A DNA stretch of 64,000 bases from positions 754,459 through 818,458 of the forward strand of contig OX638324.1 of the NCBI GenBank assembly GCA_951812825.1, given 5' to 3'. This stretch comes from an uncultured Dehalococcoidia bacterium (lineage in GTDB: Bacteria; Chloroflexota; Dehalococcoidia; Lucifugimonadales; GCA-2712585). The notes under the pieces were generated by a model, which did not search any database, had not been told where the DNA came from, and was given only the letters and a program-made list of their open reading frames with translations. Shown piece after piece: positions 36,261-59,643 of this stretch. The translations under genes and the position numbers were made by a program. The stretch's first letter is position 1, and each line of letters starts with the position of its first letter.

Positions 36261-36319
36261 TCATTCCCGCGGAGGCGGGAATCCATCTTCTCCCTTCCCC
36301 CTTGATGGGGGAATGGGGT
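36261..36319. repeat. Palindromic repeats, families B and D
   Basis: Family B is a TCATTCCSGC-(A/G-rich)-GCSGGAATCCA palindrome (36261-36285). Family D is a CCTTCCCCCTTGATGGGGGAA palindrome (36291-36319). They lie between the FAD and 2Fe-2S subunit genes of one operon and could form a hairpin in the mRNA. Confidence 0.75.
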
Positions 36320-58146: not shown

Positions 58147-58370
58147 TTTCTGAGGAGGTCCCGCGACGATGAATCTGGTGGCGGGGCGCGCTCTTCCCTC
58201 TCCCACAAAACTTGCCGACACGCAGTGTCCCCCACTATTGTTCCTGCGAAGGCAGGAACCCACGGCCGGGCGGCGCGAGGACGGGCATTCTCGACCACAT
58301 ACCCAACTCACCCCAACCGCAGCGCCTCCTTCCCCACACCCCCCGTCATACCGGCGAAAGCCGGTATCCA
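58147..58370. repeat. Cluster of palindromic repeats, family A and two family B copies
   Basis: Family A variant at 58147-58176, family B variant TTGTTCCTGCGAAGGCAGGA at 58238-58262, and family B TCATACCGGCGAAAGCCGGT at 58346-58370, filling most of the gap before the selenoprotein candidate. Confidence 0.75.
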
Positions 58371-58460
58371 GCTCCCTCCACCTCAAACATCCCCCACCCA
58401 AACCTACCCAACGCCCAATTCTTGATGTAAACTAACTCCACCCAAACCCCCGGAGGGTGG

Positions 58461-59162
58461 ATGAACCTCATATCGCAGCAGAACAGGGCCGACCTCAAGC
58501 GCAGGTTCCGCAAGGAACTCAAGCGAGACGTTACCCTCAAGTTCTTCACCACTACCACCTCCTCCGCCCTCGTCCTTCCCGGCAGAGAATGCCCCACCTG
58601 CCCCCAGGCCCAGGAGCTACTGGAAGTCACCACCGGCCTCTCCCCCAAGCTCCACCTGGAGACCTACGACTACTTCTCCGACATTGAAGAACGCGACCGC
58701 TGCGGCGTCGAACGCATCCCCGCCATCGTCCTCGAAACCGAACGCGGCGGCATCATGAAATACTACGGCGTACCCGCCGGCTACGAATTCGCCCTCCTCG
58801 TCCAGGACATCATCACCCTCTCCAGAAAAGTCAGCCCTCTCATGGTCCCCACCCGCCGCTCCCTGCGCACAGTCAACCGCCCCGTCCACATTCAGGTCTT
58901 CGTCACACCCGATTGACAGTATTGCCCGGAGGTGGCCAGGTTGGCTCACGGAATGACCCTCGAAAACAAGCTCATCACCGCCGACGTCGTCGAGGTTCGG
59001 GAGTTCCCGAACATGGCGCGCCAATACAATGTTTCCTCCGTCCCCCAGACCGTCATCAACCAGATGATAGAATTCACCGGCGCCATACCCGAAGACCAGT
59101 TCTTGGAGAAAGTCATGCAGGTTGGTTACGAAGACCCGGAAGCCGCTCAGAATGGAGTCTGA
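58461..59162 (+). CDS. Candidate selenoprotein: two-domain thiol-disulfide oxidoreductase with a U-x-x-C motif
   Basis: The frame from 58461 runs 151 codons to a TGA at 58914-58916, then continues in the same frame for 81 codons to the true stop at 59160. The joined 233-residue protein has two thioredoxin-fold halves, like protein disulfide oxidoreductases. The first half has Cys44-x-x-Cys47 (GRECPTCPQAQ), the second TPD-TGA-QYCPEVARLAHG. The TGA thus replaces the first redox cysteine, giving Sec152-x-x-Cys155. The downstream part keeps the fold's cis-Pro loop (NVSSVPQTVI). A SECIS-like hairpin starts 15 bases after the TGA. The frame overlaps ribH by 11 bases. If the TGA were a simple stop, the second active site would be lost. 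Confidence 0.8.
58932..58949 (+). promoter_or_regulatory. Putative bacterial SECIS element
   Basis: GTGGCC (58932-58937) pairs with GGC and CAC (58943-58949) around a five-base loop AGGTT, with one bulged T at 58946. An AGGU-type apical loop and a bulged U on a short stem within some 20 bases of the UGA are the features recognised by SelB in known bacterial SECIS elements. Here the bulge is on the 3' side, not the 5' side as in Escherichia coli fdhF. Confidence 0.6.
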
Positions 59163-59643
59163 TGACGCCTTGCCTCGTGAATTGATTGGCGGACGTGACG
59201 GACGGGGGCTGAAAATAGCCGTCGTCGTCTCCAGATTCAACGAAGAAATCACCTCCAGGCTCCTCCAGGGCGCTTTGGATGCCCTCGAGGAATGCGGCGT
59301 CGACGAAGAAAACGTCACCGTCGCATGGGTTCCAGGAGCCCTGGAGTTGGGCGTTGCCGCCTCAACCCTCGCCAAGTCACAGAAATTCCACGCCCTTGCC
59401 TGTCTCGGCTGCGTCGTCAGGGGGGAAACCGGCCACTACGACGTTGTCGTTACCCAGAGCACCGGCGCCCTCGCCAGAATCGCCCTCAAGACCGGCGTCC
59501 CCATCGGCATGGGCGTCATCACTACGGACAACGAAAATCAGGCCTTTGACCGCGCCGGTGGCAACTTCGGCAACAAGGGCCGCGATGCAGCCCTCGCCGC
59601 CGTCGAGATGGCCAACCTCCTGCGACTAATCGACAACCCCTGA
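59152..59643 (+). CDS. ribH: 6,7-dimethyl-8-ribityllumazine synthase
   Basis: A 163-residue enzyme that makes the lumazine precursor of riboflavin; it self-assembles into pentamers or capsids. It has IAVVVSRFNEEITSRLLQGA, VPGALELGVAA, the catalytic GCVVRGETGHYDVV and GVITTDNENQAFDRAGG. The ATG at 59152 lies inside the end of the selenoprotein candidate gene, so the two are likely translated in sequence. It is 13 kb away from the ribD-ribE-ribBA genes, which lack this step. Confidence 0.95.
   Translation: MESDDALPRELIGGRDGRGLKIAVVVSRFNEEITSRLLQGALDALEECGVDEENVTVAWVPGALELGVAASTLAKSQKFHALACLGCVVRGETGHYDVVVTQSTGALARIALKTGVPIGMGVITTDNENQAFDRAGGNFGNKGRDAALAAVEMANLLRLIDNP

Follow-up and report, generated by a model that had tools for sequence, protein, structure and literature searches.

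A selenocysteine form of the protein disulfide oxidoreductase family in Dehalococcoidia, as predicted from an in-frame TGA and its downstream hairpin

Relation to described protein disulfide oxidoreductases

Protein disulfide oxidoreductases (PDOs) of family TIGR02187 that carry selenocysteine (Sec) in a UxxC motif have been known since 2006, when Zhang et al. (2006, PMC1794560) listed them from Carboxydothermus hydrogenoformans and Symbiobacterium thermophilum. TIGR02187 with UxxC also appears in the reviews PMC9312934 and PMC13188914, of which one places it among those "predicted with high confidence". The Dehalococcoidia gene described here is of the same family and has the same UxxC, a likeness drawn from descriptions of family and motif, and it differs from those proteins in belonging to another phylum, the Chloroflexota (Dehalococcoidia/SAR202). 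A preliminary description of the locus had taken the gene for a likely new selenoprotein; the word "new" did not hold, as such UxxC members were already described; it is a real selenoprotein that adds a member to a family known since then. A search of the available literature did not find a Sec-PDO named for SAR202 or Dehalococcoidia.

The solved relatives, from Pyrococcus furiosus (1a8l), P. horikoshii and Aquifex aeolicus, possess Cys where the host PDO has Sec. The archaeal and Aquifex proteins (1a8l, 1j08, 2ayt, 2ywm, 2hls) consist of the same tandem thioredoxin folds with two CxxC sites, and the host PDO resembles them with 30-36% identity and TM scores of 0.81-0.86. The same double fold is found in the N-terminal domain of AhpF (TM 0.73-0.81). 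Of the two CxxC sites, AhpF retains the C-terminal one alone, and it is joined to a flavoprotein reductase in a single protein, whereas the host PDO is a stand-alone protein in which both sites are present. Asgard archaea (Sifarchaeia/Borrarchaeales) have been reported to contain Sec-bearing homologues of this AhpF domain, which belong to the same family and probably evolved newly there (PMC11227280). The SECIS element of archaeal recoding is of another kind than that of bacteria.

The gene, its homologues and its neighbourhood

The window, that is the whole stretch of 64,000 nucleotides that was analyzed, contains the PDO gene at positions 58461-59162 of the forward strand, on which its parts and the ribH-like neighbour described below are also located. 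A GGAGG at 58452-58456, directly 5' of the ATG, is the likely ribosome-binding site. The frame is open apart from a TGA at codon 152 (58914-58916; context VTPD-U-QYCP), after which 81 sense codons lead to the final TGA at 59160-59162, and its read-through translation comprises 233 residues including the predicted Sec152. This read-through protein matches NCBIfam TIGR02187 ("PDO_seleno_TRX", protein disulfide oxidoreductase; cut-off 185 bits) with 226.5 bits over residues 6-220, in one stretch that spans the TGA, and Pfam places a thioredoxin domain at residues 143-219. Two redox sites can be recognized: the N-terminal C44-P-T-C47 (58590-58601), which is the first active site, and U-Q-Y-C at residues 152-155, with Sec in place of Cys and with Cys155 (58923-58925) as the putative resolving partner. 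Sec152 aligns with the first Cys of the CPYC motif in the second fold of P. furiosus PDO (1a8l). An AlphaFold2 model, computed with 16 family sequences as input, reached a pLDDT of 90.6, and Foldseek returned the PDOs 2ayt, 2ywm and 1a8l as its best PDB matches (TM about 0.85), with the AhpF N-terminal domain ranking after them. With this score, two predicted tandem thioredoxin folds and two redox sites, the protein is a member of the PDO family TIGR02187. The preliminary description, which had placed the TGA at the first Cys of a second CxxC and proposed a two-domain oxidoreductase with Sec152 and Cys155, was right in both respects.

A homologue was detected in 81 of 250 genomes of the order, and 78 homologous sequences could be read and aligned. 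At position 152, 44 of these have TGA, 13 Ser, 10 Cys, 8 Asp, 2 Glu and 1 Asn; the Cys counterparts for which the preliminary description had proposed to look thus exist. All 44 TGA rows contain Cys155 and hence the complete UxxC, and the N-terminal CxxC is kept in 38 of them and in all 34 non-TGA homologues. Compared with the nearest TGA relative, pN/pS amounts to 0.17 after the TGA and 0.28 before it, and most close pairs give values of 0.03-0.15 after the TGA. The frame downstream of the TGA is under purifying selection; the preliminary description had noticed well-conserved thioredoxin-fold sequence in this 81-codon continuation.

These observations bear on the question of whether the TGA might simply be a nonsense mutation or a sequencing error within a Cys-type PDO gene. 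The Cys homologues have TGC or TGT at codon 152, only one base away from TGA, which speaks for such an origin; however, the codon is shared by 44 homologues across many genera, with Cys155 always present, and selection on the protein continues behind it. As the TGA is conserved across genera, we regard this explanation as already refuted and its probability as practically nil.

In a scan of named genomes the PDO family was located in Dehalococcoidia and SAR202 metagenome-assembled genomes (MAGs), and the selenoprotein PDO is common in SAR202/Dehalococcoidia. TGA versions outside the phylum occur in MAGs labelled Deltaproteobacteria (L139), Myxococcales (L164) and ANGP1 (L160), all of them with U-P-H-C. 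Among plasmid records nothing nearer than distant relatives was found. Some individual loci deserve mention. One genome with a single 3.40 Mb contig (G046) carries two near-identical Sec-PDO copies near either end (L031 at 12363 and L071 at 3383397) with synonymous differences between them, which may reflect either a genuine duplication or two strains that overlap in the assembly. Another Sec-PDO homologue (L099 in G154), which was matched in two pieces, appears to be frameshifted within its N-terminal domain, and two non-Sec homologue matches contain one TAA (L064 in G224) and one TAG (L069 in G022), respectively. A contig labelled Candidatus Poseidoniales archaeon (L161) has a 59% match to residues 99-203 and is probably mis-binned Chloroflexota DNA.

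The PDO gene is flanked by a CDP-alcohol phosphatidyltransferase-like gene and, on its 3' side, by a ribH-like (lumazine synthase) gene at 59152-59643, which was taken from the open reading frame list, named from its sequence and given an inferred start. The ribH-like gene follows the PDO in 19 of 30 loci tested, and 21 of these 30 loci retain at least one of the two flanking genes, Sec and non-Sec alike, with some loci stopping at contig ends. The end of the PDO gene overlaps the probable ATG of ribH by 11 bases, if that start is correct; this fits with ribosomes that pass the TGA and terminate at the actual end of the frame, but as a sign of read-through it is suggestive only. Short dispersed imperfect palindromes of the TCCTGCGAAGGCAGGAA and CCGGCGAAAGCCGGTATCCA types occur in the window at 58242-58258 and 58351-58370, and also at 36265, 37493, 42816, 42898 and 51948, well above chance; they are REP-like.

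Recoding signal and selenocysteine machinery

The preliminary description had pointed to a hairpin that begins 15 bases downstream of the TGA and has the loop AGGTT and a bulged T. This apical hairpin is indeed found at 58932-58949 (stem GTGGCC/GGC-T-CAC). In the single gene it does not stand out: the 27-nt hairpin gives a z-score of -0.73 against dinucleotide shuffles and a 60-nt window +0.87, 3% of synonymous shuffles fold equally well, and the energy minimum corresponds to a pairing other than the named helix. The strong evidence comes from the family. When the departure of synonymous codon use from the genes' own habit was determined for each of 215 codon positions, codons 160, 161, 159 and 157, which form the hairpin apex, ranked first to fourth in the 44 TGA genes, whereas in the 34 non-TGA genes all four fell outside the top 15. 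Arg160 is encoded only by AGG, CGT or CGG in the TGA genes, and Ala159 invariably by GCC. In addition, the synonymous codons of positions 156-165 were shuffled 300 times within each gene. The summed folding energy of the 44 TGA genes was -437 kcal/mol compared to -341 (sd 16.4) after shuffling, and none of the 300 shuffles was as low. Neither the Cys genes (-57 vs -55 shuffled) nor the Ser/Asp/Asn/Glu genes (-183 vs -194 shuffled) gave a signal in the same test, and in eight control windows placed elsewhere along the TGA genes the energy deviated from that of the shuffles by no more than about 2 sd.

Rfam, searched over the region with permissive thresholds, gave no match at the hairpin, and RNAalifold predicted no consensus structure from 43 TGA sequences. 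Covariation of a single fixed helix was not above that of shuffles, with 88% of its cells paired against 11-60% for slid versions. The lack of a consensus structure and of covariation is probably due to the amino acids, which fix most of the bases, and to a bulge that is placed differently in different subgroups; the codon-based tests were used instead as they keep the protein fixed. The stem itself is almost invariant, while the bulge varies by subgroup, as for example in L060 with GTGGGC-CGGGTT-GCCCAC. From its position, the selection on it and its restriction to TGA genes, we conclude that the predicted hairpin is the SECIS element, with an uncertain exact register in the single gene; the check on the hairpin proposed in the preliminary description thereby had a positive outcome. 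That the selected structure is confined to TGA genes also speaks against a nonsense mutation.

Termination at the UGA followed by re-initiation would be another way to produce the downstream part, for which the TTG at 58941 could serve as start, with a GGAGG (58928-58932) 8 bases upstream of it. This GGAGG is missing, however, from the nearest TGA relatives, the start would lie within the first helix of the C-terminal fold, and the product would lack the active site, one of the best conserved regions. We think that such a re-initiation is very improbable.

The Sec machinery of the host is complete. The genome is a single contig of 2.47 Mb with 95.65% completeness, and it encodes SelA (550 bits, cut-off 268), SelB (350 bits, cut-off 242) and SelD (375 bits), alongside a tRNA-Sec with the anticodon TCA (75.7 bits). 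The preliminary description had suggested looking for selA, selB, selC and selD and would have taken missing selA, selB and selC as a sign of a nonsense mutation; all four are there, so that this argument against Sec fails and the nonsense explanation loses further ground. The SelD of this genome (L100:789-1838) is apparently itself a selenoprotein, with an in-frame TGA at L100:840 (NCAG-U-ASK) and a strong hairpin downstream of it. Formate dehydrogenase, the usual Sec client, does not look like one in the host, judging from its best match in the genome, which has no internal stop. In the order as a whole, selA was found in 201 of the 250 genomes and the Sec machinery in most. The presence of selA and selB was considered as a separator of Sec from non-Sec homologues and rejected, as most genomes of the order have both.

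UGA is reassigned to Trp or Gly in some other bacterial groups, and the codon could in principle be decoded as another residue, by a near-cognate tRNA or by a reassigned code. In the host, however, TGA is otherwise a normal stop, at which both the PDO gene and ribH end, so that the code is not reassigned. Moreover, homologues have the active-site Cys at position 152, and the genome encodes tRNA-Sec and SelB, and we consider a decoding as any other residue highly unlikely. Recoding of TGA 152 as Sec is almost certain, about as certain as sequence allows, and it is very likely that the gene as a whole encodes a PDO with Sec in its C-terminal UxxC, inserted with the help of the downstream hairpin and SelB.

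Proposed function, loss of selenocysteine and significance

The protein would be a cytoplasmic PDO of two thioredoxin folds, with a normal CPTC in the N-terminal fold and Sec152-Q-Y-Cys155 in the C-terminal one, in which Sec is probably inserted at the UGA by SelB and Sec-tRNA(UCA) under guidance of the hairpin. The recoding signal, the machinery, the predicted fold and the site come from the analysis above, and the following catalytic roles can be proposed. The selenolate of Sec152 may act as nucleophile that attacks a substrate disulfide, and Cys155 would then resolve the mixed selenenylsulfide. Electrons would probably be supplied by a thioredoxin-reductase-like flavoprotein, and the N-terminal CPTC may function as a relay or as a second site. 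The electron supply and the relay role would be similar to those proposed for archaeal PDO and AhpF. With Sec, the C-terminal site would be the faster of the two.

The 24 homologues with Ser, Asp, Asn or Glu at position 152 all retain the N-terminal CxxC. Many of these non-redox forms share the gene neighbourhood of the Sec form, among them one in a genome of the same genus (L025 in G035), and selA and selB are present in the majority of the genomes concerned. The AU test rejects a single clade of these forms (p = 5e-5); the starred branches of the tree force at least three changes, and parsimony requires five to six on the unrooted tree. Since the tree is unrooted, the direction of these changes is something we infer. 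One clade of five TGA genes (L074, L075, L078, L079, L087) has lost the N-terminal CxxC, so that Sec-x-x-Cys is their sole site, a one-site state like that of the N-terminal domain of AhpF. Zhang et al. 2006 (PMC1794560) describe Cys-to-Sec and Sec-to-Cys changes and the loss of whole genes, and in the available part of that text a replacement of Sec by non-redox residues was not found. On balance it is somewhat favoured that the Sec-PDO is old in the Dehalococcoidia and that several lineages changed Sec to Ser, Asp, Asn or Glu and not to Cys, mostly with the Sec machinery kept. If this is true, the Ser/Asp/Asn/Glu forms would represent a two-site enzyme reduced to the N-terminal CxxC alone, and, given the other clade, in which Sec was retained but the N-terminal CxxC disappeared, the two sites would be separable. 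The loss of Sec would then be a loss of function and not a swap to Cys.

Standard gene calling stops at the TGA and thereby loses the second active site of the PDO. In SAR202/Dehalococcoidia genomes the proper annotation of the protein is that of a selenoprotein, which adds a client to the Sec machinery there. Its orthologues with Sec, Cys, Ser, Asp, Asn and Glu, many of which share their neighbourhood, provide a natural series on the role of Sec versus Cys.
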